Of a DNA stretch of 64,000 nucleotides, positions 2,781-58,997 are shown piece after piece. Position 1 is the first letter of the stretch, and every line of letters starts with the position of its first letter. The DNA is taken from the NCBI GenBank assembly GCA_022478985.1, contig JAKSZP010000205.1:81741-145740 (forward strand), read 5' to 3'. The DNA comes from Massospora cicadina (Eukaryota > Entomophthoromycota > Entomophthoromycetes > Entomophthorales > Entomophthoraceae). The translations under genes were made by a program, and so were the position numbers. A model generated the notes under the pieces. That model was not told the origin of the DNA, made no database searches, and saw nothing but the letters and a program-made list of their open reading frames with translations.

Positions 2781-3599
2781 GATTACTCACAAATTGTAAT
2801 AATAAAGTATATATGGAATCACTGAAAACTCCTGCACTAGCACTCTTTGGGCTTATTTTTATTGCCATCCAGATTTCAAACTCTACTAGTGTATTTCCCT
2901 GATTTGACTTGGACAAATATAGATATGGCCCACTATAAGCATACCTTTCCTAGTCAAGCTCAGCAGAAAAAGTTAGTCATAAAAATTTATATTTCTCCAT
3001 ACTTGGATATATAGTTCCAGATTTTTAATCAAAACCTACTAAAGGAAAAAGGTAAAATAAAATTCCAAGTTGCCTATTGGAGCATCCCAAATCCATTGAG
3101 AGACTGGTGTACTAAGTAGTGAGGCCAAAAACTAAGCTACATCCACCCACAGGCAATGAAAGAAGGAATGTCAATTTTCCTGTCAAAAAGACGTCATCCC
3201 TCATAAGTCTCAGAATCTGGTGTAGAAAAAAGTTCAAGTCATTATACCTCCTTCACATCTATTTCAATTTTATGAAGGAATTAATACTGCTATACCTGAT
3301 CAACTGATTTGTCTTGGGTCACTCAATCCCGCATACCATGGTCCTTTTATTGTCTAGGTGGCTAATCTTACTGACCAATCTCAGGCTGTAACTTAAATCA
3401 TCCATTGTCCTATGTCCGCACTTTACCAATTGACTTAGTTGACTCCTTGACTAGTTGTGGACCTTTGATTGGCTTAAGGATTGATGAATACCCCATTGTA
3501 AGGCAAGCGGAGGTAAAGTTTGGCGATTCTTTTACTATTGAGAAATGACAATTAGTTTCCTATAACTAAGAAGTAACCTGGCAAATTCTCAAAGGGTCT

Positions 3600-8093: not shown

Positions 8094-8103
8094 AGTTATT
8101 ATT
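8094..8103. repeat. Target-site duplication of SINE1, AGTTATTATT (left copy)
   Basis: AGTTATTATT occurs here, again at 8243-8252 and again at 8544-8553. The first two copies bracket SINE1; the second and third bracket SINE2. Confidence 0.6.
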
Positions 8104-8242
8104 GCTTTTAATTATTCGAGGTGGGTCGACCTCGGGACAAATATACCACACCGAGAAGTTTTCTAGCCAGTACAGGTTTCGAACTCAAAACCTGCACATA
8201 GGGTGGAAGCAGTTTTACCTGCTCGGCTAACCACCCTACCAG
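8104..8242 (-). mobile_element. SINE1: tRNA-derived short interspersed element
   Basis: Read on the - strand it begins GGTAGGGTGGTTAGCCGAGC, with a pol III A box like that of a tRNA (TTAGCCGAGCAGG). About 50 bases later comes GAGTTCGAAACC, a near-perfect B box. The 3' part reads GTATATTTGTCCCGAGGTC then GACCCACCTCGAAT and ends in an A/T-rich tail. A direct repeat AGTTATTATT bounds it. SINEs are transcribed by pol III from the internal boxes and moved by the enzymes of a LINE. It lies inside element J. Confidence 0.75.
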
Positions 8243-8252
8243 AGTTATTATT

Positions 8253-8541
8253 ATCTTTTTTTCTTTTTTTATTCGAGGTGGGCCGACCTGGGGACGATAC
8301 CGCACCGATTAGGGAAGTGAAGAAAATGGGAAAGGAGGATAAAACCCGGAAAACCTCCATGCGCAGCGTATGATAGGCCAGGAACTCCATGGACCGCCTT
8401 TGCTATTTGCTATCTCGGTTCGGGGCATTGGCGCGCAAAACCAACACAGTCAAAATCGTCCCCTACCCAAAGTCCATTACCGGGATCGAACTCGGGAGGC
8501 AGTGGTAGAGGGTCTATACTCTACCACTGGGGTATCCTCCC
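8253..8541 (-). mobile_element. SINE2: longer tRNA-derived element sharing the SINE1 3' domain
   Basis: On the - strand it starts GGGAGGATACCCCAGTGGTA, with a tRNA-like A box, and has a B box GAGTTCGATCCCGG about 50 bases on. A middle part of roughly 150 bp is absent from SINE1. The 3' end reads GGTATCGTCCCCAGGTCGGC then CCACCTCGAAT and an A-rich tail, clearly related to SINE1. A perfect 12 bp repeat AGAGTTATTATT flanks it (8241-8252 and 8542-8553). The tRNA-like head is too degenerate and too long-tailed to be a working tRNA gene. Confidence 0.75.
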
Positions 8542-8553
8542 AGAGTTATTATT
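8542..8553. repeat. Target-site duplication of SINE2, AGAGTTATTATT (right copy)
   Basis: It is identical to 8241-8252 over 12 bases. The two copies lie directly at the ends of SINE2. Confidence 0.75.
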
Positions 8554-9196: not shown

Positions 9197-9585
9197 CCTT
9201 TCAGAATTTGGCGATCCACTAGATGGATTCTGAGGCCCTCAAAGCTGATTTTGGAGTTGCCAAAATAAGTAATCGATTGGTTGGGGAAATTAGATTCCCT
9301 TATATATAAATGTAAATCACTAGGTCAATACTCAGTACTGACTCAGGATGAAAAAATAGAATGATTTTCTCATAATAAACAAACGACTGATGCCATGGAT
9401 GACGAAATGTTGCTCTAAGGATTAAAGCCCTGGAGTGATACTTATTTATATATAAATTTATAAAACAAAAAAGAAGTTAAACCTGTCGTTTAATTGTATT
9501 ATTTTGACAAATATATAGGGCAAGTTGTATTATTAATTAGTCAGTAATATAACACAGTTGATCATATTAAGATATCTAATGAGAG

Positions 9586-9609
9586 TGGGACCATCTAGTA
9601 CTAAAAAAA
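9586..9609 (+). mobile_element. Mini-retroposon copy 1, 24 bp
   Basis: The insert is TGGGACCATCTAGTACT followed by seven A. It is flanked by a perfect 15 bp direct repeat GATATCTAATGAGAG (9571-9585 and 9610-9624), or 17 bp counting two A. The partner J LTR at about 7230-7255 has the same surroundings without the insert, so this is an insertion and not a deletion elsewhere. A-tail, long target duplication and extreme shortness point to target-primed reverse transcription of an RNA 3' end. Confidence 0.8.
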
Positions 9610-9677
9610 GATATCTAATGAGAGATATAATCAACTTATTAAAGGTCATATCTGATATCTATTATAAACAGAATAAA

Positions 9678-19328: not shown

Positions 19329-19882
19329 TGTTGTCAAAGGTTTTAACTGGCCTTTGACTAAACACCTATTATATGTCAATGGTCAAAATGAAAACAAACA
19401 TACTTGAATTTCGTCCAAGACTCTAAAATGTCCATATATTCTTTTTGGTTCCCTTAATCATTTCAGAATCGTCATGCGGCGATTTATAACCTCTAAATTG
19501 ATCTTTTATATAAATGGCACAATTATATTTATTCTACTTATTGTACACAAAGTGTCCATTGTACACCCCTTGACAATTGTGGTTCTAGCCTGGAAACATT
19601 GATGCTCCACATCTAAAGAATCTTTTATAAACTATTTTTACCTTTATCTCAATAAAATGCATAACATGTCCAAGATCTTCTTAGTTTTAGCAGAAGTCGC
19701 TATTGCTGTAGAGATTTACTATTTTGAGAGTTGAAGAAATAAAGAATATCATATAGCTTAGTACATTATTCTGTGAAAATTAATTTGTCCTGAACTGAGT
19801 GTTAAGATCATGAAGAATTGACGGAGTTCTGAGAAGGATTTATACCTTAGCCCATAGAGTTCTTGACTTAAACTTTACAGGG
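19329..19882 (+). repeat. 3' LTR of element I
   Basis: It starts TGTTGTCAAAGG and ends TTTACAGG, followed by AAATT. It pairs with 12093-12639. Confidence 0.65.
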
Positions 19883-22810: not shown

Positions 22811-22952
22811 ATAAATAAAGTAAATGAGGGGGTCAACCTTGGGACAAATATACCATGCTGAGTTTTTTAGCCTGTGCTGGTTTTAAACTTGTGTCAATTG
22901 AAACCTGACCCAGAGTGGAGCATGAACCACCCCGCTATGCTACCACTCCTCC
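22811..22952 (-). mobile_element. SINE3: tRNA-derived element with the shared 3' domain
   Basis: On the - strand the head reads GGAGGAGTGGTAGCATAGCG with a weak A box. A decayed B box, AAGTTTAAAACC, stands where SINE1 has GAGTTCGAAACC. The 3' part GGTATATTTGTCCCAAGGTT then GACCC matches SINE1 and SINE2. A perfect 10 bp duplication TATTTTAAAA lies at 22801-22810 and 22953-22962. The head differs from those of SINE1 and SINE2. Confidence 0.72.
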
Positions 22953-25443: not shown

Positions 25444-25462
25444 GAAGGTTGTGTAAACATAT
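25444..25462. repeat. Target-site duplication of LINE B (left copy, diverged)
   Basis: GAAGGTTGTGTAAACATAT here and GAAGGGCATGTACACATAT at 37957-37975 agree at 15 of 19 positions by eye. They lie exactly at the two ends of LINE B once the LINE A insertion is taken out. Confidence 0.5.
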
Positions 25463-26706
25463 TTTATTTTCCTATTTGGAGAGAGTATACCAGTTGACTT
25501 ACACTTCCAATGTAATCATGATATACTATCAAAATATAGATTTATAAAGGACACCCCAGAGGGTTCATAACCTCTCCTGTTGTCAGTCATGACCGCCAGG
25601 TTTAGGAAGATGGGGAGATTCATGCCAACTCTTTACTTGGATGCAGCATGAGTTTAGGAAGGGATCAATGTTTAGAAACCATATTGGGAATCATGAGTTG
25701 ATTAGCCTTATGTTGCGTGGGCCATGTTGCCAAACAACAGTGCCTAAAAATGTTTCTATATATGATAGTGAATACAATTGATTACTTCTTGGAGGGTAAG
25801 AGTTGTTCCTGAAAATGAGTATAATACTATACTATGGAGTGTCTATTTTGCTATTGTCACTATCACAGTCCGTAGAGATGGATGAATTAGTGACTCCATG
25901 TTGGGAGCGAACATTTTTTTAGATAAGCTGAATATCTTCCTATATCCTTGGTGGAATAGCATATAACCTCTTTACAGATAGCTGCCAATGGCGGACAATG
26001 ATCTAGGCGGTGTATTAAAATTCAATATTGGCCCCATATTGTTCAAAAATGGGAGATATTATATCGCTCCACCATGTGATATACTCTCAGAATGCATCTC
26101 CTTATTTGTGAATGTATACTGGGTTGTAGTAGAGCATGGTGTATGTATCCCCAGATAATCCTTTGGGTTTTTTTGTTATATGGTATGTCCATTATATCCA
26201 TGTATTCAACCCTGGTAATTGTACTCATTACAGTTTATCATTCTGTTTATAACAAATTGGCCGTTAAATTCTTACCTGTAAGTTAGCCTTGGGCGGCCTC
26301 ATTGGATAGTCTGTCCACTAATGTGGATCTTCCATTCCGCTTTTCTCATGGCAAGAAGTATTTGTTTAAAGTGTACAGGGATCTCACGCGGTCCTGCAGC
26401 AGTTGGATGTGATCACATATACCTAATAAATGAGATCGAATGACTTGGGTTTCCTATTTGTGGAACACGTGCAAAGTTTGACCTTGCTGCTTAGGCCCAA
26501 TGTAGATTTGGAAGATCTGAACTAGTCATCTGGACTATCCAGGTTCCTAGTATTTAAAAGCTTGTTTTACATAATTTATTGGCCCCATACCTCCATTAAT
26601 ACTAGGGCCAAATAACGCTTTAAGAGTACAGGGGCTTTTTGGCCAGACCAAAGCCACCCATGTATTAGGGCATAATTTGTTGTAGAAAAAGGATGGTGAA
26701 AGCTAG
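25463..26706 (-). pseudogene. LINE B: 3' part (end of ORF2 and 3' UTR)
   Basis: The - strand continues LINE B beyond the LINE A insertion. From 26690 down it aligns with LINE A from 32700 onward. At 26228-26043 it reads RVEYMDIMDIPYNKKTQRII, matching LINE A VRIDYLDHMDIPYNLETQRR, then HHALLQPSIHSQIRRCILRV. The 3' UTR aligns through GAACCCTCTGGGGTG (25560 region), and the element ends with CTCCAAATAGGAAAATAAAA near 25470. The ORF2 C-terminal CCHC knuckle seen in LINE A is not intact here. Confidence 0.75.
26692..26706. repeat. Target-site duplication of LINE A (left copy)
   Basis: GATGGTGAAAGCTAG here and GATGGTGAAAATTAG at 33934-33948 differ at two of 15 positions. Read on the - strand, this is the ORF2 sequence of LINE B at the insertion point. 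Confidence 0.75.
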
Positions 26707-26791
26707 CTTTTCTTTCTGATTACTATCACTTTTAATAATACAATTCGATTCAAACAGCAAAATATGATAATAAACACCAGGCGAGATTAGT

Positions 26792-28056
26792 ATGAATAAT
26801 AAGGTAAAGAGCTGGGAAAACGCGGTAGAGGGTAGCAGATCCAGAACTGCACCGCCCAAAGGTACCAAGCGCACAGGTACAAATGAAAATCTCAGCAAAA
26901 ATAAAAAACCTGAGGTGGTGCATCCCGCAGGTTTCATCAATTTTTTAGTAAGATACTGTAGCTATCTAAAAAGTATCACAATTGCAACCACTGTCATTGG
27001 TGGAACATGGGATATGAGTTTTCCTGGGCGTAGAAACACTGATGATGTGGGAAAAGTTCAGCAAAGCCCAACAAAAAGTTTTTCCCACACGTGGTGTACT
27101 TAACAACCCATACTATCCGCAAAGGGTGGGTAGATCTTGGGTTCAAAACTGTGGAAGAAGCAAATGAAGCAGCAAAAGTCAGAGTGGCACTCAACCTTCC
27201 TGACGGACAGCAATTGGTTCCAACCAAACGCACCCATTGGACTGAATCCAAGGATATTTTCATAATTTTTGATTATCTTCTGACCACACTGGCGCGCACA
27301 GTAGTTGAAAGTCATCTCCAAGAAGGCTTGGAAGCCTACAGAGAAATTAAACAATTTGAAATGCAGCGCTTCCAGCTGATGCTGACCCTCAGCATGAGGA
27401 AAGCCAATAGCAATAATTTCGCTGAACCAGGATTTAGTAGAGGAGATTACAAAAATCCCCCACATCGCATCCTTCACAATTGATAGAAAAAAATACCAGC
27501 TGTTCCACGCAACAGTGGAAAGCATACCCCCCATTTGCAACCACTGCCAGGCCTTTGGGCACAAGATTCATGCTTTCCCCATAAAAGAAGGCCTGAGAGA
27601 AATGGAATTCTGTGAGGAGGAAATGGGCGAAGATGACTCAGAATACACCAAAATCACAGACACTACACAAGCCTTCAACTGGGGAGAACACGGTAAATAT
27701 AAAATTATTGACCTTTTTCCCTGAAAGAAAGAAAAATGGCCAAACAAGCTCACAAGCTGGCTGCGGCCAAGGCAAAGACCTCGGTGGAATCAACCATATC
27801 GCTGGAGCAGATCCAGGAAGACATGGAGGAACTCAAGTCCATGAACCAATCAGATCCCGCGGAAAACCATACACCCAATCTGACCAGTTCAAATTTGACA
27901 GAACCTGATTTGGAAATGAATGCAGCAAAATTGGGGCTCAGTGCACACCCAGAAATTGTGGAATTCAACCCAATTGGGAAGGAAAATCAACAATGGAATG
28001 TGCAAGAAAAAATGCAGCCAATAAAAATCCACAAGTGCACTGCAATAACATTTTGA
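26792..28056 (+). pseudogene. LINE A ORF1
   Basis: The frame opens MNNKVKSWENAVEGS at 26792. It shifts near 27090 to a frame reading VYLTTHTIRKGWVDLGFKTV, EEANEAAKVRVALNLPDGQQ and LVPTKRTHW. LINE B has the matching block at 37661-37398 (DLGFEMAKEANDDAKVRVVV). A knuckle at about 27530-27575 reads CNHCQAFGHKIHAF, that is C-x2-C-x4-H-x4 with the last Cys changed to Phe. A third frame at 27736-28056 is acidic and Gln/Asn-rich. ORF1 proteins of this group bind element RNA. There are at least two frameshifts. Confidence 0.65.
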
Positions 28057-28383
28057 AACCAAGCAAAGCAAGAGAGGAGCGAAAACTGTGGCAATGAAAG
28101 GGGCAGAATACACCCCAACTCCTACCCATGGCTATGCTCTCTGCAGCAGAGGTGTAGTGGAGAGCAATGTGAGCGAGGGAGTAGGGCCGGGAGGCCCTGC
28201 TAACTGCTCCTGAGGCGCATTGGGCGTCTCAGTAGAGATAAGGGACTCTGAACATAGTGGGACTCAAGGCCTAACATCCCGGGCCAAGAAGTTGAGTCTA
28301 CTACAAAACCCACCTGTGGATATCCTGGCGGTGCAGGAAACCCACTGTCCACAGGGAGAGGAGGAGGCATGGGAAAAAATGCT

Positions 28384-28398
28384 CCTCCCAACAATATT
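28384..28398. repeat. Target-site duplication of mini-retroposon 2 (left copy)
   Basis: CCTCCCAACAATATT is repeated exactly at 28422-28436 on the other side of the insert. Confidence 0.8.
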
Positions 28399-28421
28399 TT
28401 TTTTTAGTACTAGATGGTCCA
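28399..28421 (-). mobile_element. Mini-retroposon copy 2, 23 bp
   Basis: On the - strand it is TGGACCATCTAGTACT plus seven A. It is flanked by a perfect 15 bp repeat. LINE B at about 36290-36310 has the same endonuclease sequence with no insert. It is the shortest copy, and its first bases TGGACC differ by one base from the GGGACC of the other three. Confidence 0.8.
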
Positions 28422-29023
28422 CCTCCCAACAATATTGTTTTGGTCGCTTCACTGTGGGGTGATAGTACATGCAAACCAAAACTATAAATTTATTAATAAA
28501 AATTCATTCCTGAATGGCCACATACTCGCCGTAACTTTTTCATGGCACACTGAAGTGCACACAATAGCCAGTGTGTACGCTCTGAACGGTGCGTATGATT
28601 AAAGAGAATTTCTCACAGCTTCAACACAATTAAATCTACCAGCAGATAATTTCATAATGGGAGACATGAACTGCTTGATTAACCCAGAGATTGACCAATG
28701 GCCATACACAATGGAGATACCACAAGGGCAAGTGGAACTCCAAGTACTAAAGGCCACCCTGGGACTATATGATCACTGCCAAAAAGGCAACCCCTGCTAC
28801 AAAACATGACACGCCCACATTTACACAATGGTACACTTGTCCCTATTTCAAGGATAGACCTAATACTCGCACCAATAATTTTTGGTCACCTAATCCAAAA
28901 ATTTAAAACTGGAAAAATTGAATGTTCCAACCATTGGCTTGTTTCAGTGTCTTACAAACTGGTGGAACTCAGTACCCAAGCACCCAGATGGTGCAGAATA
29001 CACCCAGAAAGTTTAGCTGACTC

Positions 29024-29041
29024 AGAATTTCAATCCTGGAT
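29024..29041. repeat. Target-site duplication of LC1 (left copy)
   Basis: AGAATTTCAATCCTGGAT is identical over 18 bases to 30938-30955. It encodes part of ORF2 of LINE A. Confidence 0.9.
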
Positions 29042-29056
29042 TAGAGCTTCTTTGAA

Positions 29057-29078
29057 CGCTCAAAGTCACTTTTGAGCG
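29057..29078 (+). promoter_or_regulatory. Hairpin at the LC1 5' end
   Basis: CGCTCAAA and TTTGAGCG form a perfect 8 bp stem around the loop GTCACT. LC2 (near 41259-41282) and LC3 (near 21420) keep related sequence (TTTTGAGC or TTTTGAGT), so the leader is a conserved part of the element. Confidence 0.55.
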
Positions 29079-30133
29079 ATTTTAAATTTAAGTTTATTTA
29101 TCCACAGCCGTCTGCCCAAACCTATTCTTTGATGTCCTTGGCTCTGCCGCCTGCCACCCCAGTGTGGGGCAGCAGTGCACCCCCACCTAGCGTTTTCTGC
29201 CCCACGGGCAAGCACGTTCAGACGGGCTCAAACAGCCCTCCCACTGCTTCCAACTGCTTTGTCACCCCACGGGACTTAGCGCTCCACCTGGCGCGCGTCC
29301 ACCCTTCTCGCTCCCATCCTCTCGCCCTCCCTCGCTCTGCCATTCGCTATTGCCTCAGAGTGGACTATGGGCGTTTGTTCCCATATGCCAATAAGGCAAT
29401 TATTGACCTAGCCACTGCGGCCTTTGCACCAGCTGGCTTTATAGACTTCCGCCCTTTTAAGGGCTACTTTGACGTTGGGTTCCAATCTGAGGAGGATGCT
29501 GAAGCGGCAGCACAAACTCCTCTAATTTATAAAAAAAACCCCATTTCCACAACTCGTACTCGCCTCCCTTCAGACACCATGCTAGTGGTATCCTTTGCAA
29601 ATCTCCCATCCCGCCTTCCACCCCAGGTTTTGTATGACCAGTTGGTCGTGGGGCTCATGGCTTATGGCATTCAGCCCAACCTCATCTTTGCTATTTCATC
29701 TAGTGCGGAATGCCTTGCTGCTCCTTGTGCAACAGCCACCATCATACCACACCACCCTACCATAGCCCAACAAATCCCACCCCGCGCTAGTGTGGCTGCA
29801 CCGCCTGATCATTTCTTTTGGGCTCAGGTCAATAATGGTAGGCAGATTTGTTCCCTCTGCTTTGGCCTTGACCATGCAAAAAGAGCATGCCCTCAGGCTA
29901 AATCCGGTGCTGCAGCTTCTGAGCCCCCCTCTGGAGGTTCAGTATGGGGCGCTTTGCTGCCCCCTCCCACCCTCCAATCTCGTTCAGTGGGACCACATGG
30001 AAAATCAGCCCCCCCAAAACCTCCATCCTCACTCTCCCACCTAAATCTACGCCAGCCAATCAGAGCAATGCTTGGACTACCATTCGCACCCAAGCAGCTG
30101 CCCATTCGCCCAATCCTACCCACCCAAATTTAA
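29072..30133 (+). CDS. LC1 ORF1, N-terminal open frame of 353 codons
   Basis: This is the longest open frame in the window. Residues 24-45 hold the family motif LPPATPVWGSSAPPPSVF then CPTGKH. Residues near 95-185 form a block with VDYGRLFPYANKAIIDLATA and FRPFKGYFDVGFQSEEDAEA, resembling a small alpha/beta fold. Residues near 167-220 match LC3. A CCHC knuckle at about residues 259-272 reads CSLCFGLDHAKRAC. The tail is Pro-rich. An RNA-binding ORF1p role is inferred from the knuckle and the element context. The first Met may not be the natural start; the annotated one at 29072 lies within the leader hairpin, and Met at about residue 22 is a good alternative. Confidence 0.65.
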   Translation: MSDFKFKFIYPQPSAQTYSLMSLALPPATPVWGSSAPPPSVFCPTGKHVQTGSNSPPTASNCFVTPRDLALHLARVHPSRSHPLALPRSAIRYCLRVDYGRLFPYANKAIIDLATAAFAPAGFIDFRPFKGYFDVGFQSEEDAEAAAQTPLIYKKNPISTTRTRLPSDTMLVVSFANLPSRLPPQVLYDQLVVGLMAYGIQPNLIFAISSSAECLAAPCATATIIPHHPTIAQQIPPRASVAAPPDHFFWAQVNNGRQICSLCFGLDHAKRACPQAKSGAAASEPPSGGSVWGALLPPPTLQSRSVGPHGKSAPPKPPSSLSHLNLRQPIRAMLGLPFAPKQLPIRPILPTQI

Positions 30134-30859
30134 ACGCCACTATTCCAGTGAACCAAAATCCATGGGATCTATTGGCTGAAACTGACGAATCAGGTAATGT
30201 CCTCATTAGTAAGCATACAGGTCAACCTCTCTGCCAAGGCAATTATGGTCGGGCAAAATTTTTCCTTCCCAACTTTGATGAAACCCCTACTCCTCGCCAT
30301 TTTGCTCCTCTACCCAATACAGCCCCCTTCCAAAGTGACCACCAGCTAGCCTTAGCTGCGGTGGCCTCTCCTCATTGCCCAAAACTACGCACCGCGGTGG
30401 CCCAGTCAGTGGCTCAGCTCCAGCATGGCCTGCCCACCATCTTCTTCCCCCGACTTCCCTGAATCTCCCTGCAGTGACATCTCAAAACTATTTGATGATG
30501 CTGAAATTGCTGTTTTGAATGTCGCAACGCTTGCTTCATTCAACCCCTCAGCCAAAATCACCCGCCACAATATCTCCCTTTTCACCCAACTTCCTGAAGC
30601 TCGCAAAGAAGCTGAAGTTCTCCTCGCAGCTTTTGTTGAAACACTTTCCCATCATTATCTTGATGTGGAAGTGGAAAACTCCTACTACGCTGACCTCAGC
30701 CCCCACTATGCGGATGCCCCAACGCCCTGGCTCTCTGCTCTGATCCAGTACTGTAACCAACATCCCTTGATCGAGGTGGGTCTTTCTGAAAACCAACCCC
30801 CAACCCCTCCTCACCCTCTGCCATGGTGGGTTAGCAGTTTCTGCTTCCCACCTGGTTAG
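30131..30859 (+). pseudogene. LC1 ORF1, C-terminal part in shifted frames
   Basis: Coding sequence goes on past the stop at 30133 in a second frame up to 30462, with NPWDLLAETDESGNVLISKH, and then a third frame up to 30859 with ARKEAEVLLAAFVETLSHHY and LDVEVENSYYADLSPHYADA. LC2 has matching pieces (NPWSSLDETEELDYA near 42370). Two frameshifts would restore a protein of roughly 590 residues. The function of this C-terminal half is unknown; I see no endonuclease or RT motif. Confidence 0.5.
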
Positions 30860-30937
30860 TAGTTTGTTTTGTCATTTTGAGTGTTGTGTCCGGTACTGTC
30901 CATCCCCTGGTCAGCGTGGTCTCAAATAAATTGAAAT

Positions 30938-30955
30938 AGAATTTCAATCCTGGAT
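30938..30955. repeat. Target-site duplication of LC1 (right copy)
   Basis: It is identical to 29024-29041 over 18 bases. Confidence 0.9.
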
Positions 30956-33405
30956 GGAGGAAATATTTTAAACCAAGGATTTTCAAACTCCTTTTTGCTC
31001 GGATACACTAATCACCTTGGAAAACTTCAAAAAATCAACAACCCAGCAAATCAAACATACATCGTCTAGAAGACATAGGGCAGTTTCAGCCATTATCAAA
31101 AACACATTGGCTGAAATTGACCATCCAGAAAACAACGCACCAAGAACAGGATACAGCCATGGATGGGGTCTCAAATGGGCGGAAGTTTCTGCTTGGCTAA
31201 ACACCTTGATCTGCAAACACCAAAATCGACTCAGAGTCTAATATAAAGGCAAAAACATAAGAGATGTAGAAACTTGTTTGAGCTACTTTTCCGCTGATTC
31301 CATGCGAGGAAAAATATGATAGCCTGCACACAGGTCCGTTGACTGGATAAATCCATAGCATAAACACCCAAGGAAATCGCAACCAAAATGCACAGGTTTT
31401 ATATGAAATTGTATAAATCTGAGCCAGTCAAACCAGAAAATTCAAAAAATTTCTTAGAAGTGCAAATATTGACACCGTGGCCCAAAATCACAATTTAATC
31501 AACCTAATGTCACGCGAGGAATTATGAGAAATAGTACGTGGTGCACTAAGAGGGAAATGCCCTGGACCTGATGGGATTCCCTATGAATTTTACATAAAAT
31601 ATTCACTAACATCTCTAAAATTCTTCTAGCTTCAATGAACAAGTGTATTATGGAAACATGCCTCCTACCTGGAGGCAAAGAAGCCTACACGGTCACTTTA
31701 TTCAAGAAAGGAGACAGATTAGACCTATCCAACTGGCGCCCAATTTTCTTAACCAACACAGATACAAAAATTTTCAAAAAATTTATGGCTAAACGACTAG
31801 GAGAAATTGCAACTGATGCGATATCCCCATCACAATATGGATTTGTTCCAAGAAGATCCATATGGGACAACATCCACACAGTTGCAAATGTCTGCCAGTC
31901 CAAAAACTCTGGAGCCCTTGTCTTTTTAGACCAACAAAAGGCATACTATAGGGTGAACTGGACCTATCTTAGGGCCTGCCTTCAAAAAACAAAGCTTCCA
32001 AATAGATTTATAAACTGGGTAATGTTGTTTACAGAGTCTGCAACCATGGCTGTGAAGGGAGCAGGCTTATTAACCAACTAAGTTATCCCACAGAGAGGAC
32101 TAAAACAAGGAGACCCCTTAAACCCTCTACTCTACAACTTTAGCCTAGACCCCCTAATCCGAAATACAAACACACTGCTCAAAGGAATCAACGTCAAAGG
32201 CCAACCACCAGTCAAAATGATGGCCTTCGCTGATGATTGTGTGGTGGGCATATCCAACAATCAGGACGCTTGTAGAATTGAGAAAATAGTACAAGACTAT
32301 TCAACCATAAGTAACGCATCACTTAACACTGAGAAAACGGAAATTATACTCCAGGGAAAATACCAGACCCATTGGGCGCCATCTACCCAGGGTCAACAAG
32401 ATAAAACAACATCAAGACTCCTGACCAGACATAGGAGGTGTAAACTAGCAACGACCTTACTGAAACTTCCATTCATCACCAAGCCAACATCTGGCCCTGT
32501 TCGTCACTTGTGAGTATGGTTAGAAGCAGGGGGTTACGCCAACTCCATGATGGAAAATCAATTATTGGACAAAATAACAAAACGCATATCCTCCTTACAT
32601 GGACATCAAACAGGTCTAACAGGAAGGGTCACGGTAGCCAACTCTATAATTTTATCAATCATATGGTTCACGGCCCAGCAATCGCTTTTTCACCATCCTT
32701 TTTCAACACAGTCCGCGCCCTATTACAAGGATGGTAAAAGTCCAACTATAACCCCCCTGCACGCCTCAAAACCCTATTTGGATCTAGAAGGAATGGAGGC
32801 ATGGGGCTTACTAATTACGTAGAGCAAGCAACCCATATACTGGGATCTTGGATAGCTCAGGTGACTAGCCCAGATCTTCCAGATATACACTGGGCCAGAA
32901 CAGCAAGATATAACTTTTACGTGCATTACAATTAAGAAACTCAGAGCACCATAACACATTAATCAAGTATCTGGCATCCCATCCTACAGCTGCAGGACCA
33001 CATGGCACTCCTGCACATTTCAAATGAATACTCCTAGCCATGAGAATAGCGACATAGCGGATTCACATAAATGAACAAACCAGTCACTGAGGACGCCCAA
33101 TACTAACTAACAGACAGGAGATCAATGATCAGATAGTCATAGACAACATAATGATCAAAAGCCCAAATACCATAGTCAGGATAGATTACCTGGACCATAT
33201 GGACATACCCTACAACCTGGAGACCCAAAGAAGAGTATGGAGATACACACATCACCCTCTACTCCAACCCAGGATAAGAGCACATGTATGGAGGTGCATG
33301 AGGAGAGTATACCAAACAGCTGAATGGTCAAACGCCAATCACACCTCATGTGCAATATGTGGTCAGTTCGGAAGCCTATCCCACCACTTAGAACAATGCC
33401 CAACA
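30956..33405 (+). pseudogene. LINE A ORF2: linker, reverse transcriptase and C-terminal CCHC
   Basis: ORF2 resumes after LC1. RT blocks in order: CPGPDGIPYEFY (31560), SNWRPIFLTNTDTKIFKKF and QYGFVPRRSIWDNI (31720-31870), ALVFLDQQKAYYRVNWTYL (31911), RGLKQGDPLNPLLYNFSLDP (32093), and the catalytic box MAFADDCVVGI (32217-32250), which is intact. Downstream comes VRIDYLDHMDIPYNLETQRR and a C-terminal knuckle CAICGQFGSLSHHLEQC (C-x2-C-x7-H-x4-C) at about 33350-33400. Several stops and frameshifts separate the blocks. RT copies element RNA at the nicked target site. Confidence 0.8.
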
Positions 33406-33933
33406 TAAGCAGCGATATAGAAAGAGGCCATGCATCTTTTCCTCCAAGAAAACGAACATCCATTCAGCCTATCAAGGAACATGTTCGCTATAAACATGGA
33501 TTCTCCTATCCACCCATCTCTCAGGGCGCTAATAGTAGCAATAGCACTATGGACAATACACACAATGATACTGGAATCGTTCATAGGAGCAGTGCCAACA
33601 ATCCAAGAAGCCATTCATCGCTTTCACAGCCATATATTGGAACACTTCCAAGCATGGCTGTTTGGACATATGACCCCCCATAACAGAAGGACAATCAACA
33701 CATGGTTCCCCATATGGTTCCTAAAGTTTGATCCTTTCCTATACACATACTGCATTTAAGAATAAGCCAGCATAACTACCCTTCCCTACCGCCCTAAACT
33801 TGGTGACCCTGGAGACAACAAGAGCGGACTTGAACCCTCTGGGGTGTTTCTATTTATCGGATTTCATTAGTTTTCTCACTATATCAGAAGTGCTTGTCCC
33901 CTGGTCGACCTTCCCCAAATAAATATAAAAAAT
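33406..33933 (+). other. LINE A 3' end of ORF2 and 3' UTR
   Basis: The 33410-33740 part is still alignable to LINE B (CACCCATCTCTCAGGG; CCATATGGTTCCTAAA) and may encode the end of ORF2. The 3' UTR contains GAACCCTCTGGGGTG and ends with CCCCTGGTC and CAAATAAATATAAAAA. Confidence 0.6.
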
Positions 33934-33948
33934 GATGGTGAAAATTAG
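33934..33948. repeat. Target-site duplication of LINE A (right copy)
   Basis: GATGGTGAAAATTAG; see 26692-26706. Confidence 0.75.
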
Positions 33949-35023
33949 ATTGCATGCGGCATAAACCAAATCATTGATAATAGCATGGAGTTGTCTAGCA
34001 CAACTCATCCAGTTAAACTTGTGTGTTGTCTATTAAGGGGAGTGATGTGTTTTGTTAGCTTATATAGGAGATGATTCTCCATCGTGGTGTTGGAGTACTC
34101 CCCTGACTCAATCTATACTACCAAATGACGGATAAGTTAAGCTGCCAGCTTGGTGATAAAGGGGAGCTATAATGGTGTGATTGAGGAATTTTACTTGTTA
34201 AACCTGGTGAAAAGTTCCTTGGGTTTCATGGTCTGGTGGCCTAAAGTTAGTGGACCCAATGGGTCTAATATTTTACCAAGAATATACCTTCAGTTTTTTA
34301 AGCATTGAGTGATGCGTTGCTAATAATAAAATATTTTTGTATTGCTTTTCAAGTATGCGAGCATCATAATTGTGGTATATAACCACTATACAATCGTCTG
34401 CAAAAGCCATCACCTTGACTGGTGGTTGGCTATGGACGTTGACGCCAGAAATGAGGACATTTGTATTTCAGATTAATGGATTGAGACTAAAATTTTATAA
34501 TAGAGGGCTTAGGGGTCACCTTGCTAGAGTCCCCTCTGTAAAAATTAGCTTAGTTAAAAATACTGCTCCATGTACATCCATAGTGGCTGACTCAGTGAAC
34601 AGCATCGCCCAGTTTATAAATCTGTTTGGATTTTTAAATTTTGAAAACAAGCCCAAAGGTAGGTTCAGCTCACCATGTCATAGGCTTTCTGTTAATTTAG
34701 GATAACAAGCGCTCCAGATGCTTTAGATTGACAGACATTAGTAGCTGTATGGATGCTATCCCATAATGACCTTCTGGGGACAAATTTTCATTTTGATGGG
34801 GATATACTTCTGTTAATATTTCCCCTAGTCATTTAGCCTCAATTATTTGTGAATATTTTAATGTTAGTGTTGGATAGGGAGATTAAGTGCCATTTGGGTA
34901 GATTTAAACTATCTCCCTTTTTTAAAGAGAGTAACTGTAAATGATTCTTGAACTCTAGGAAGAAGGTAGATTTACACAATAAGTTGTTCATGAAAGCTAA
35001 AAGAATGTTAGGAATGTTATTAA

Positions 35024-35037
35024 AATATTTTCATAGA
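35024..35037. repeat. Target-site duplication of mini-retroposon 3 (left copy)
   Basis: AATATTTTCATAGA here and AATATTTTCCATAGA at 35062-35076 match apart from one extra C. Confidence 0.7.
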
Positions 35038-35063
35038 GTTGGGACCATCTAGTACTAAAAAAA
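35038..35063 (+). mobile_element. Mini-retroposon copy 3, about 26 bp
   Basis: GTTGGGACCATCTAGTACT followed by seven A, the last two of which may belong to the target duplication. It sits in the ORF2 of LINE B, on the strand opposite to that element. It extends two to three bases further 5' than copy 1 with the same sequence as copy 4 (GGTTGGGACC). Confidence 0.75.
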
Positions 35064-35830
35064 TATTTTCCATAGACCATATAGAGTAGCTCATCAGGCC
35101 AGGCATTTCCTTCATGGTGCACTGTGCACCGCTTCCCATAATTCCTCTTGAGAAAATAAATAAATAAATTAAATTTTTGGTTTGAACCATGGTGCCAATA
35201 TGTGCAATTTAAGAATTTTACTCTGTTATGAAGAAGCAGATTTATATAAATTTATGTAAACCCTGTTTACTCCAGTCATGACTTCCTCCGCGTTTCTGAT
35301 ATGGATGTATCCAGCCACCAGACCTGTGTGCAGGCTATGGTGTTCTTTTTGGAGTAAATCGGTGGAAAAAATAACTTGAACTTGTTTCTCCAGGCTTTAT
35401 ATTTTTTGCGCTGAAGTGAACACCAAGCAGCACTGTTAATGTTCAAGTACCGAAGTGTTTAAGCATGCGGATACCTCAGCTCATTTATATCCCATCCAGA
35501 GCCTTAGCATGTGCGTGGGACATTGTTTTTCAGGTAATTGAGTTTAGCCAAAATGCTTTTAATGATGGTTGAAACTGTCCAGACTTTCTTTGTGCTGTAT
35601 GTTTGATTAGGTCACTGTTAATTTATTATAATTTTTTTCAGGTGATCAGAGGGTCTGAACTGATAGGTGTTTGAAAATTAATTTTGAGACCTACCTTCAC
35701 CCAGGAATGAAATTCAAAGTCAGTGAAATTTTTGGACATAATCTGCACCAGCTGGATTCTTGTATGATTGCTTTTGATTTTATAGACCTAAACTAGCAAA
35801 TGATTGGACTTTCAATTTTTTGTAGTTTAA

Positions 35831-36600
35831 ATTTACAAATTGATGTTAGAAATTAATGGCACAAGTATGAGGTCTATGCACAACATAGATATTATTTCAC
35901 TGTTGTGCACATGAGGCAACGTCATGTTCTGCAGGAGAGGAAAACATCTGGATAAGGTCATATAGGTCAAGATGGCTTTTAACACGCGAAGTTCAATGTG
36001 CCCTTGTGGTGCCCCAGTTTGTGTGTGCCATTGATCAATATTTGGGTTAATCCAACAGTTCATGTCTCCTATAATGAAGGTGTTCTCTGGGAAATGGAGG
36101 TGTGTCAAGGCTGAGAGAAATTAATAAAGATCCCGTGCACAGTTCAATGCATACACGCTGGCTATTGTGTGCACCTCTTCTTTCCAGGAGAATGTAACAG
36201 CTAGTACTCAGTCATCTATTTATGAACTTTTACTAATGAATTTAAATTTTGGTCACGGATACTATCACCCCATAGTGCTGTGACCAAAACATTAGTGTTG
36301 GGAGGATCATGTTTTCCTATGCCTCCTCCTTCCCTTATAGACAGTGGGTTTCATGTACTGCCAGGGATGTCCATAAGGTGGTTGCACAGGTGACTCAACT
36401 TCTTGGTCTGGGATGCCAAGGCCTTGAGTACCGCTATGTTCAACGTCCCTATCTCTACTGTGACGCCCAGTGTGCCTCAGGAGCTGGTATCAGAGACTTG
36501 GTCCTACTCCATTGCCCTCCTTGCTCACCTTAGCATCATTGCTGTGAGAGTTAAAGTGATGAGTAGAACTGGGCATATTCTGCCCCTTTCTTTACCATTA
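35831..36600 (-). pseudogene. LINE B ORF2: endonuclease domain
   Basis: At 36108-35833 it reads FPENTFIIGDMNCWINPNID followed by QWHTQTGAPQGHIELRVLKA. LINE A has IMGDMNCLINPEIDQW and QGQVELQVLKA. Further up, near 36370-36290, the CATGATCCTCCCAACACTAA region matches LINE A without the mini-retroposon, giving an empty reference site. The start of ORF2 lies near 36530. Confidence 0.65.
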
Positions 36601-37956
36601 ATTTAATTTTCTTTTTGCCTTTTTTGGCACTTGATTTTTTATTACGGTACAATTGTTTGTTCCCATTTAATCAGTTGTGTCTAAAGAATTCAATTGTTGA
36701 TGTTTATTCCCATTTGGGTTGTAATTTGTAATCTTGTCTAAAATTCCCTTGCCATAGTAAATTCGCATATAAATTAAATTCCATTGAATTCTGTTGGTTT
36801 GTATTGGCTTCTTGTTTTTATGTAGCATTTGGTTGGCTTAATGCTATTAGTTACTACATATTTTCCTGAATTTGTTCAGGAGAAATGAGTGATTCTTCCA
36901 ATGGCTTTGCCTTGGCAGCGGCCAACTTGTGAGCATGTCTGGACACTTTTTGCTCCTATGGAAATTAGGTCAACAGTTATATATTGTTAGAATTCCCTCC
37001 AGTTCTATGCTTGAGTGGAGTATGTAATTTTGGCATATTCTGAGTCTTTTCGCCTATTTCCTCTTCAAATAAATCCATTTCTCATAAACCTTATTATATG
37101 GGAGATCATGAATCTTGTATCTAAAAGCCTGACAGTGGTTGCATATGGGTGATGCACTCCACTGTTGCACAGAATAATTAAGATCTTCCCCATCATTTTT
37201 AATGGATATTTAGGGGTTTTTTGAGATTCTCTGCTACCTCTGGGTTTGGTAAATAATTTTAATTACCTTTCCTGTACTAAGAGTCAGCATTAAAATAAAA
37301 TCTATGCACATCAAACTGCTTAATCTCTCCATAGGATTCCAAACTCTCCCAGATATGGTGTCTGACTATTGTACATGCAAGTTTTTCTGGAAGATGGTCA
37401 AACATAATATAAATGTCTTTTGGACTCTGCCCAACATGTACGTTTGGTCAATAACAATTGTTGACAACTGGGGAGGTCAACCACTACTCTGACCTTTGCA
37501 TCATCATTAGCTTCTTTCGCCATCTCAAACCCAAGGTCACTCAACCATGGCGGATAGTATGGGTTGTCATGTGCACAACGCGTGGAAATAATTTTGGTTG
37601 GGTTTCCCAAACTTTCCCCAAAATACTGGTCCATCTTTTCCCAGAAACACACGAATCCCATGCTCCACTGATGAAAGTGGTTGAGAATTGGACATTTCCA
37701 TATAGATACAGTATTTGACTAAAATATCCATGAAACCCACAGGATGCACCTCTTCAGGGTTTCTTTTGCTTGGTTTTTATTACTTCCAGTGAGCATGGTG
37801 CCTTTGGGTGTTAAAGATCTTGGTCTGCTACCCTTACTGCATTTGCCTAATGCGATTCTTTTTTATGAATTATGCTCATCTCACCTGTAATATTATCAAA
37901 TTGTTCTGTTTGTTAAATCATTTACTAAAAGTGATAGTTATGGAAAGAAAAACCTA
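36601..37956 (-). pseudogene. LINE B ORF1 and 5' end
   Basis: At 37661-37398 the - strand reads SDLGFEMAKEANDDAKVRVV and QQLLLTKRTCWAESKRH, matching LINE A ORF1 (DLGFKTVEEANEAAKVRVAL, QQLVPTKRTHWTESK). A knuckle near 37135 keeps CNHCQAF but the following His is changed. The 5' end near 37956 (GGTTTTTCTTTCC) matches the 5' end of LINE A. The + strand frames here are shadows. Confidence 0.65.
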
Positions 37957-42813: not shown

Positions 42814-43697
42814 TGTCTTGAGGACATGCTTGAGGGTACCAACTCTAAGGATAAAGCTGGCCGCAGGAGGCCATAAAGTTAAGTTAGCAGGCCTTCCTGA
42901 CCTCAAACATACCCTAGATCAAAGCTGGGTTCAGGAGAGATATGCCCAGGTTGGTCCTGGGGATTTGTTTAATGCTCAGCCCTGCATTAAAGCAGGGGCG
43001 TTAAAACTCACTAGCTAAACCACAAATAACAATGGTTCAATGTAGTTGCTCAACAAATGTGGTTTCTAAACCTGTTCAATTTATGAAATTTCCAACTTGT
43101 GTGGGCCTTGCCTACAATCAATAACTCGAGTTTGGTCAATCTCAAGCTATAGTACACTGGCTGATGGAAGCATGTGCCTTTTGGTGCACTTAGGCTTTGC
43201 ACCACTTCCACCAATTGATGATCCCCCAGTTGTTTAAGTATTTTTCCTCAAGACCAACCTTTTTTTGTTGGTCAACTTTTCTAATAAAGATGCCATTAAG
43301 CTTTACTTTTTAATATGTTTCCTTGGGTGAACCTGTGCGCAGACCTCCTCATGGAGATCTTTTACTCAGAGTTGGTCCGTTTAATATAACTAAATTGTCA
43401 CCCATACCTTGTGCACCTCTCAGGTGCCCTGGTCCCCTCTAGATCAAAGCGCTCAAGCACTCCTACAATGATCTCCAATTGGACATGTACTCTTCTTTGT
43501 GGTCTAACCAAGTTTGGATATCTATTTGCTCTCTTCTACTATGTACCGCGCTGTACAGCTTTGCTTGTACATTTTGCTCTGTCACTCTCCGCGGTGCCCT
43601 ATTTACCATCCTGCTAATGACTAGTTCCCTGATGGTGTGGCTGTGAATCTTGCACCATCTCTCTGGGTATGGGATAGTTACAGACACTCTCCTTACA
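42814..43697 (+). repeat. Solo LTR (family S) in LC2
   Basis: It starts TGTCTTGAGGACATG and ends ACACTCTCCTTACA. A second copy of the same LTR lies at 59003-59854 on the other strand with the same ends. Both carry a related readable stretch near the start (here LPDLKHTLDQSWVQERYAQV). No internal element sequence follows, so it is a solo LTR. The flanks TATCA and, one base off, TGTCA may be a decayed duplication. Confidence 0.6.
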
Positions 43698-57624: not shown

Positions 57625-57640
57625 CAAAGTTTAGCTTCCC
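57625..57640. repeat. Target-site duplication of mini-retroposon 4 (left copy)
   Basis: CAAAGTTTAGCTTCCC is repeated exactly at 57690-57705. Confidence 0.85.
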
Positions 57641-57689
57641 TTTTTTTAGTACTAGATGGTCCCAACCTGAGGGGGGGATTCATCGATGT
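57641..57689 (-). mobile_element. Mini-retroposon copy 4, 49 bp, the longest
   Basis: On the - strand it starts ACATCGATGAATCCCCCCCT, continues CAGGTTGGGACC, and ends with the shared ATCTAGTACT plus seven A. A perfect 16 bp duplication flanks it. G2 at about 55365-55385 has the same Gag region without the insert. The extra 5' bases give the only view of the upstream part of the source RNA. Confidence 0.85.
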
Positions 57690-58997
57690 CAAAGTTTAGC
57701 TTCCCATTAAACTGATGAGCAAAATCTTTTGATTGATTCATTCTGGAGAGGCTGTATACCCATAAAAGCCTGTTTTTGAGAATATAAGGTTTGCTCACTT
57801 CTGAATTCTTTGATTAACATCTCTTTGACTGCGACCAAGTAGTGAAAGTCATTAAGTGGGGTACTATGATATCTGGGACAATTGATTGAGACAATTAAGA
57901 AAACTAATTCATTTTCTGATGATCTGTGGCCTCACTCAGAGAATTATCATATAGATAGAGAGAAGAGATAACGCTGTCTTCAGCCAGGAGAGTTTTTGTC
58001 TTTAAATACTGGTTTGAAACTTATTGAAGCATTGGCCATCAAAACATGTACCCCAGGATGTTCAGATTGAGTAGAGACATAACAGTTGGAATCAGAAGCT
58101 TGCAAAGAAAAGGGATGATAGGGGCTGACAGTCTCAGTATGAATTTCAACAATACATTAATTCATATCAACATGCCCCACTTTTTCATCCACCAGATGAG
58201 ATATTTCATAAATTTTCTCCTGCTGAGAATTGTACTTAAATTCTAATGGTTCATTTTTGGCTTGGAGCATCTTGACTTTTGATTCATAGGTTTGAAACAG
58301 GATATTGGTGCCCTTCGCCCATTTACCCAGATTACTTATTTCATCAGAGAGATACTGAAGTGACAGGAGGGGATCAATCGTTACCCCTTCTGGGGTTAAG
58401 TTACATTCCTTGGCCACTTTGTAGATTGGTCACATAAGCGGTCCATCATGCTCAATAGGGAGTCAATTTTTTGAAAGGATCCTGAATACCCATCAGCGCC
58501 CAGGGGCCCCAGAGGTCCATCTGCACCTGGCAGTCTGCGGGGCCCTTCAACACCGGGGGTCCTTGGGGCCATCAACATCAGGAGGTCCACATGGACCTAA
58601 GCCCCCAGGTGGACCACAGGTAATTCAGCCCCTGGAGGACCCATAGTGCCAGTAGTTTTCTCTACTTCAATGACTAGGGATTTAATTTCCGAGTACAATT
58701 GCTCCAATTGAGAAAGATGATTTCTGATTTCTTCTTCCATTGCTTGACTATGCTCAGAAAAGTGATTCAGTTCCCACTTACCATTCTTTCTGAATTTCCC
58801 AGACTCGTTGTGGAAACTGTAATCCAACAAAGCTAGACATCCCACGATTAAGCTGAATAAGCTGTTGATGTACTTCAGTTAAAAAGGTCCAATTATTTAA
58901 GATGGCATACCAATTATCTCTGTTAAATTTAGAGGCATATTTGAAAAAACTTGGTAATATAATTATTCAAGGACCAAAGTCCTTTTAGTAAATTGAG

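Follow-up and report, generated by a model that had tools for sequence, protein, structure and literature searches.

Very short copies of a LINE 3′ end in Massospora cicadina start at two narrow points in and beside a predicted hairpin

The window, by which we mean the whole 64,000-nucleotide stretch of DNA that was analysed (Massospora cicadina contig JAKSZP010000205.1, positions 81,741 to 145,740 of the forward strand), holds four very short inserts with the same 3′ end followed by a run of A. They are listed here with their flanking duplications; S and M denote the truncation classes set out below, and the LINE is the source element that is also described below.

9571..9585, + strand: site a, duplication copy 1, GATATCTAATGAGAG; two further A are ambiguous
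9586..9609, + strand: site a, insert of S class, LINE 3′ end, TGGGACCATCTAGTACT plus A7
9610..9624, + strand: site a, duplication copy 2
28384..28398, − strand: site b, duplication adjoining the A tail, AATATTGTTGGGAGG
28399..28421, − strand: site b, insert of S class, TGGACCATCTAGTACT plus A7
28422..28436, − strand: site b, duplication, 5′ copy
35022..35037, + strand: site c, duplication copy 1, AAAATATTTTCATAGA
35038..35059, + strand: site c, insert of S class, GTTGGGACCATCTAGTACT plus A3 to A7; the border of tail and duplication is ambiguous, with an A-run to 35063
35060..35076, + strand: site c, duplication copy 2, with one extra C relative to copy 1
57625..57640, − strand: site d, duplication adjoining the A tail, GGGAAGCTAAACTTTG
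57641..57689, − strand: site d, insert of M class, the LINE's last 42 nt plus A7; starts ACATCGATG and reads ACATCGATGAATCCCCCCCTCAGGTTGGGACCATCTAGTACT-A7
57690..57705, − strand: site d, duplication, 5′ copy

The insert lengths at sites a to d (24, 23, about 26 and 49 bp) agree with the original prediction, as does the presence of both orientations (a and c on the + strand, b and d on the − strand). When the window was searched for the 16-mer at the common 3′ end with up to three mismatches allowed, matches were found at 9587 (+), 28406 (−, one mismatch), 35041 (+) and 57648 (−), and none of 100 shuffled windows held four or more (mean 0.35), so the four inserts with a shared 3′ end stand as described. 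The same holds for the long flanking direct repeats (15–17 bp), three of which had been called perfect: they measure 15 bp at site a (17 with the two ambiguous A), 15 at b and 16 at d, and the pair at c differs by a one-base indel. Empty sites also exist as claimed, since related insert-free copies that are 68–80% identical align to all four places, reasonably at a, b and d and messily at c, and a cleaner empty site is present at locus L010, where the flanks match 2918-3480 and 3467-3545 of a single repeat copy. No longer copy was found in the window, in line with the view that the source lies outside it, and the two 3′ ends of window LINEs that we inspected differ from the inserts. These window LINEs include pieces in both orientations at 25458-37951 that are 67–68% identical, two of which, in the same orientation, abut near 26701-26708. 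Two paired repeats, at 42840-42954 and 59823-59708, one of them containing CAGGTTGGGACCA, were set aside as not being copies of the LINE end, because their similarity continues past the motif and CATCTAGTACT is missing.

We also sampled blind to the motif, using 200 kb from ten contigs together with the window (264 kb). This sample holds eight clear copies, of which five have a young form; the other three have an older one, approximately GATCRGTGTATCCCCCTTTAGGTTGGGACCACCTAGTGCT-An, and each of these begins at the M position. In a profile built from these same eight copies, the weakest copy scored 18.9 bits versus 7.4 bits for the best reversed-sequence control. A scan for an A-run with a perfect direct repeat of at least 11 bp within 500 bp gave five cases in 264 kb versus one in reversed sequence, and four of the five belong to this LINE-end family. 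The separation weakens once one mismatch is tolerated: repeats of at least 14 gave 6 versus 2 reversed in the 264 kb, and repeats of at least 11 gave 5 versus 7 reversed in the window alone. The genome-wide search that had been proposed was run over the assembly of 1,469,884,898 bases in 16,968 contigs, and the exact 16-mer GGGACCATCTAGTACT occurs at 19,595 places (9,731 and 9,864 by strand), while its reversed control occurs at 0 and 1. Together, the shuffles, the A-run and repeat scan and the genome-wide count of 19,595 versus 1 rule out a chance origin of the motif. The motif is absent from the viral contigs that were searched, and the 16-mer from the papers that were searched. A protein encoded by a LINE in the window has up to 91% identity, across 84% of its length, to Massospora cicadina proteins, which make up 15 of its 16 hits. 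Passages of PMC11105155 describe a LINE expansion in M. cicadina that followed its Ty3 expansion.

The source of the inserts is a LINE, one of the origins originally considered. Three of the first eight loci hold long copies (L022 and L023, more than 1.5 kb; L024, about 520 bp), and upstream of the motif L022 and L023 align in two stretches, 5,568 bp at 95% and 891 bp at 92%, spanning about 6.4 kb of L022, so these two are near-full-length copies that end in the motif. The L022 copy starts ATCTCTTTCTGC directly after GATTGGTCATGGCA, which recurs past its A tail, and the 3′ end of the element, as read in L024, is GGCTCTTAGGAGCCCAGGCGTAATTCAATAAACATCGATGAATCCCCCCTTGGGTTGGGACCATCTAGTACT and then A. 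Pfam scans done on separate pieces of the L121/L022 copy, which has frame breaks, matched Exo_endo_phos (PF03372, 3.1e-10) and RVT_1 (PF00078, 8.4e-30), with a zf-RVT match (9.6e-6) just under the cut-off, so that the source encodes both the endonuclease and the reverse transcriptase domains of a LINE. The closest solved structures to its reverse transcriptase, by pairwise matches only, are 8c8j (7.1e-36) and L1 ORF2p (1.7e-35), with R2 at 1.6e-27. Longer copies, which could have revealed the motif as a fixed internal part of another repeat, are present, but they are the full LINE ending in the motif. With their constant 3′ end, 5′ truncation and target-site duplications of variable length, which are features of LINE insertions, the inserts are by their anatomy 5′-truncated and derive from a single 6.4-kb LINE through target-primed reverse transcription, the route that the original prediction had proposed from the constant 3′ ends and long duplications. 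The element itself shows some variation: distances from its 5′ end to the −375 position cluster near 6.0 and 5.7 kb, as length variants of the 5′ region (L121/L122), and two long copies align with a break near the 5′ end, one piece being shifted by about 375 bp.

Next, the first 100 listed of the 19,595 places (L021–L120, contigs C1–C13) were taken with no selection and binned by the number of bases before GGG (S, 0–9; M, 20–32), with a direct repeat of at least 11 bp and at most one mismatch required for both classes. Forty-seven copies are of the S class: they start 0–8 nt before GGGACC, a position within the apical part of a predicted 3′-terminal hairpin; 24 are of the M class and start 23–27 nt before GGG, with CATCG, ACATCG, AACATCG or something close to them as first bases, immediately 3′ of AATAAA, where insert d also starts relative to the full LINE; and 16 are long and match the LINE through all 229 nt tested. 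Four lie between S and M, 11–18 nt before GGG (L026, which has extra bases, L076, L097 and L114). The remaining nine, with no qualifying repeat or a doubtful match, were left unassigned (L030, L038, L055, L061, L099, L102, L108, L109 and L119); two of these extend beyond AATAAA (L030 and L061, 43 and 79 nt before GGG), and L055 and L108 start near the M point by eye. Without the tail, S inserts measure 15–24 nt and M inserts 39–43 nt. Among these 100 first-listed copies the motif is bounded by direct repeats, as foreseen, in the 71 that are short: the duplications are 11–22 bp long with a mode of 16–17 (57 of 71 within 14–18), 53 of them perfect and 18 with one mismatch. The A-run is 7 long in 42 of the 100 copies and 8 in 24. 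For 12 of the 16 long copies, a comparison of listed places put the 5′-end 16-mer about 6.0 or 6.4 kb upstream; in the same comparison L024 is a truncated long copy, and L068, L100 and L103 are without an assignable 5′ end. The variable 5′ ends of the original description thus give way to truncation concentrated at two points (47 S and 24 M of 100).

Copies of the S class that start at GGACC (site b, L008) or later, of the ACCATCTAGTACTAAA type, fall outside the genome-wide count, and since starts 3′ of GGG escape it, the S share is probably understated. At L160, ACCATCTAGTACTAAAA lies just past an older M-class insert and may be a young copy of ultra-short length whose start lies 3′ of GGG.

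To follow truncation along the whole element, we counted exact 16-mers from the 3′ end to the 5′ end. These large-family counts are lower bounds, and their ratios, being ratios of exact matches, are biased to unmutated copies and are no census.

GGGACCATCTAGTACT, 3′ end: 19,595
ACATCGATGAATCCCC, first bases of M: 6,720
AATAAACATCGATGAA, five bases beyond ACATCGATGAATCCCC: 2,365
GCTCTTAGGAGCCCAG, about −57: 2,966
CTCAGCCCTGGTCTGG, −375: 2,788
TCTGCTAAGCATCACT, −6,422, 5′ end: 2,598

The reversed control is 0 for every one of these 16-mers except GGGACCATCTAGTACT. The count drops from 19,595 to 6,720 to 2,365 within about 30 nt and from there remains level as far as the 5′ end; 2,365 being lower than 2,966, variable stretches are evidently undercounted by exact matching. 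By these exact-match ratios, about 85% of copies stop inside the last 43 nt and little is lost across the next 6.4 kb, and by subtraction (19,595 minus 2,966) the short copies number roughly 16,600 exact matches. Among the first 100 listed of the 2,788 −375 places, 65 are paired with the 5′-end 16-mer at 5.5–6.8 kb; the pairing used listed 5′-end places up to contig C193, and whether a place lay near the border of its contig was checked only for the + strand and at the low end. Of the 35 unpaired places, three are too near a contig start to judge, and others may be truncated or diverged. The very poor processivity once suggested is therefore not supported in general: counts are level from about −57 (2,966) to the 5′ end (2,598), 65 of 100 places are paired, and processivity is not simply poor.

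The 3′ module is predicted to fold as GAUG-AA-UCCC-CC(CUUG)GG-GU(U)-GGGA-C-CAUC, with a folding energy no better than that of dinucleotide shuffles, 51 of 200 of which did as well (z −0.64). The same fold is predicted for the young and the older subfamily, within the energy range of shuffles. The older subfamily has 1,739 exact copies, and its first 40 listed places, besides two already in L009, were classed under laxer rules (M by motif, long by LINE motif, S by a repeat with at most two mismatches) as 22 M, 7 S, 4 long and 7 unassigned, three of the last (L130, L133 and L152) starting at the M point by eye. Because the four older long copies read TAAATAAAGATCGG or close variants, the older M point again lies directly 3′ of AATAAA. 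The base of the hairpin differs on both sides between the subfamilies, a compensatory change that amounts to one event: where the 3′ arm is CATC (young), the 5′ arm is GATG in 37 of 42 copies, and among the 23 copies with CACC (old), 12 have GGTG on the 5′ side, 4 have AGTG, which loses the outer pair, 3 have other letters, and the 4 with GATG or AATG do not fit such a change. As the copies were selected by the letters of the 3′ arm, only the 5′ arm is free evidence for pairing.

SINEs are short retroposons moved by a LINE, and the window holds two nested SINE-like repeats at 8252-8553 (−) and 8099-8250 (−), the first with a tRNA-like B box (GTTCGATCCC), an imperfect A tail and a 14-bp duplication (AATAATAACTCTGG), and both with a 3′ tail of the type TCGGTGYGGTAT..GTCCCNAGGTCGRCCCACCTCGAATAA. 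Tails resembling it are also present at 22826-22872 (−), at 33887-33924 (+) and in L008, L013 and L019. The tail at 8263-8323 (−) resembles the older LINE tail at L009:4452-4498 from ATCGGT on, with a score of 29 that none of 5000 letter shuffles reached. From this likeness, SINEs may have taken the LINE module, from near the M point, as their 3′ end. As a source of the inserts, the tRNA-SINEs were rejected: the 3′ tail of this one family is similar, not identical, and a second family shows no similarity (3090 of 5000 shuffles reach its score). A 288-bp insert at L020:2831-3150 (−), with a perfect 16-bp duplication (TAAAGCATCTTTGGAA) and a tail ending ...GCCTTGGTTAAATAAAAAA, perhaps represents a second SINE family. 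At L150, the tail of a SINE is interrupted by an M-class insert of the older LINE that has a 17-bp duplication (GGTATATTTGTCCCAAG); hence the LINE was still active once that SINE was in place.

A simple block to reverse transcription would be expected at the 3′ base of the stem. None of the five exact AGTACTAAAAA sites in the 264 kb stops there, and all reach GGACC, which points either to a complex that keeps hold of the stem as it melts it or to templates that were already cut at the loop and linker. At the 5′ junctions, microhomology is above chance in S copies (18 of 36 versus 10.9 expected, P 0.011) and near chance in M copies (10 of 22 versus 7.6 expected, P 0.19), a test that omitted 11 of the 47 S and 2 of the 24 M copies because of untemplated or variant bases. 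On this evidence S starts look like internal arrest, while M starts could be arrest or run-off. In human L1, according to passages of PMC2912911, junction microhomology is in excess in truncated copies and at chance in full-length ones.

The best explanation of these observations, and one that we think probably correct, is abortive target-primed reverse transcription at the predicted 3′ hairpin. The LINE RNA would end in a linker with AATAAA (predicted to be unpaired), the predicted hairpin, UAGUACU and about seven A, and the enzyme would nick the target, prime on the oligo-A and begin copying. Failure would mostly come at one of two points, either in the apical part of the hairpin when its 3′ arm had already been copied (S, 15–24 nt) or next to AATAAA, immediately 5′ of the hairpin (M, 39–43 nt), and copying that passed both points would usually reach the 5′ end. 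By analogy with ZfL2 ORF2, the abortive step may occur while the LINE protein still grips the 3′ hairpin, which an enzyme bound there from the start would need to release, and the aborted cDNA would still be joined to the target with ordinary duplications. Some of the evidence weighs against arrest. M starts are confined to about 3 nt and have near-chance microhomology, so that they fit run-off at an RNA 5′ end equally, and because S starts lie in loop or bulge that nucleases could cut, with the 3′ arm already passed, a plain hairpin block is not obvious.

These same points favour the main alternative, one that we regard as rather unlikely overall, in which LINE RNA is cut or decays from its 5′ end as far as the hairpin, perhaps under protection by protein, and is then copied to the 5′ end of the remaining stub, M being the protected fragment and S a half cut at the loop. 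It fits the tight placing of M starts directly after AATAA(A) in both subfamilies, the near-chance microhomology of M and the location of S and M starts largely in stretches predicted to be unpaired, and a template that is either intact or decayed would naturally give all-or-nothing lengths; the smear of S starts across 0–8 nt and the excess microhomology at S junctions argue against it. A separate small RNA or SINE that shares the 3′ end and templates the short copies in place of LINE RNA is very improbable. Short copies are several times commoner than the LINE, and SINEs with a similar 3′ tail are present in the genome, but M sequences are the LINE 3′ end, no longer non-LINE copy was seen among the 100, and the SINE tail aligns only to ACCT and then diverges. 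The window also has no Rfam match at gathering score, with sub-threshold ones only around insert d, by which a tRNA or known RNA family was rejected as the source. ARAGORN found no tRNA in the window, where it also misses the SINE head that is present, and by reading, the inserts are too short for a tRNA-like head, so that they lack the internal Pol III promoter and full-length non-coding unit of a SINE. Equally little weight falls on smooth truncation whose intermediates were later lost to selection or recombination or were missed by the exact 16-mer search. Such a search favours unmutated copies, 13 of the 100 are intermediate or unassigned, and passages of PMC5389967 report selection against long copies in Anolis; yet intermediates would have turned up among the 100 places, for which the 3′ 16-mer was the sole criterion, and length-dependent loss is not expected to leave thousands of full copies with so few of lengths from 43 nt to several kb.

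If abortive reverse transcription at the hairpin is taken one step further, the 3′ hairpin might act as a checkpoint resembling abortive initiation and promoter escape by RNA polymerase, with the enzyme anchored for the first 15–43 nt, roughly 85% of integrations aborting (by exact 16-mer counts) and high processivity after release. We advance this only tentatively and would not quite back it. Were it true, the reaction would have three main products, of about 17, 42 and 6,400 nt, and the genome would hold well over ten thousand abortive products as a record of single reaction pauses. LINE truncation is an old question that is often framed as limited processivity. Here failure clusters within the last 43 nt and later elongation is mostly complete, which points to release from the 3′ hairpin or to template integrity as the deciding step. 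The short copies also form a class of 15–43 bp insertions with duplications that standard repeat annotation would probably miss.

In the context of known elements, the present analysis covers one genome, at the level of its DNA and by exact-match counts. The stringent LINEs UnaL2 and ZfL2 end in short repeats. The Massospora LINE differs from them in its oligo-A tail and resembles ZfL2-1, ZfL2-2 and UnaL2, as described in passages of PMC4176376, in having a 3′-terminal stem-loop (predicted here) before a short tail and SINEs with similar tails. According to the same passages, the ORF2 region between endonuclease and reverse transcriptase binds the 3′ stem-loop in a stringent LINE (ZfL2); they contain no description of arrest at the stem-loop. 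tRNA-derived SINEs are unlike the copies found here, which are 15–43 nt from the 3′ end of the LINE followed by A and lack a tRNA-like head. Truncation of human L1 is broad, and the Massospora LINE differs in its discrete truncation and its short, fairly constant A-run (7 or 8 in 66 of 100). It resembles human LINE-1 in its related reverse transcriptase (ORF2p), its A tail and its duplication length, the duplications of full-length human L1 peaking at 14–16 bp in passages of PMC2912911. A likeness in length is found in Anolis, where, in the passages of PMC5389967 used here, the authors infer many CR1 insertions below 50 bp and L1 truncates early or tends to completeness, so that neither very short insertions nor a two-phase length curve is new in kind. 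Among the open-licence PMC papers searched, we found none that reports truncation at two narrow points linked to a 3′ hairpin, with intermediate lengths being few. In those Anolis passages, the probability of truncation of CR1 and L2 falls with distance from the 3′ end and early truncation of L1 means failing to reach 1 kb, whereas in the Massospora LINE the two narrow starts lie within 43 nt and are tied to a single predicted hairpin, and few copies were seen that are longer than 43 nt but short of full length.
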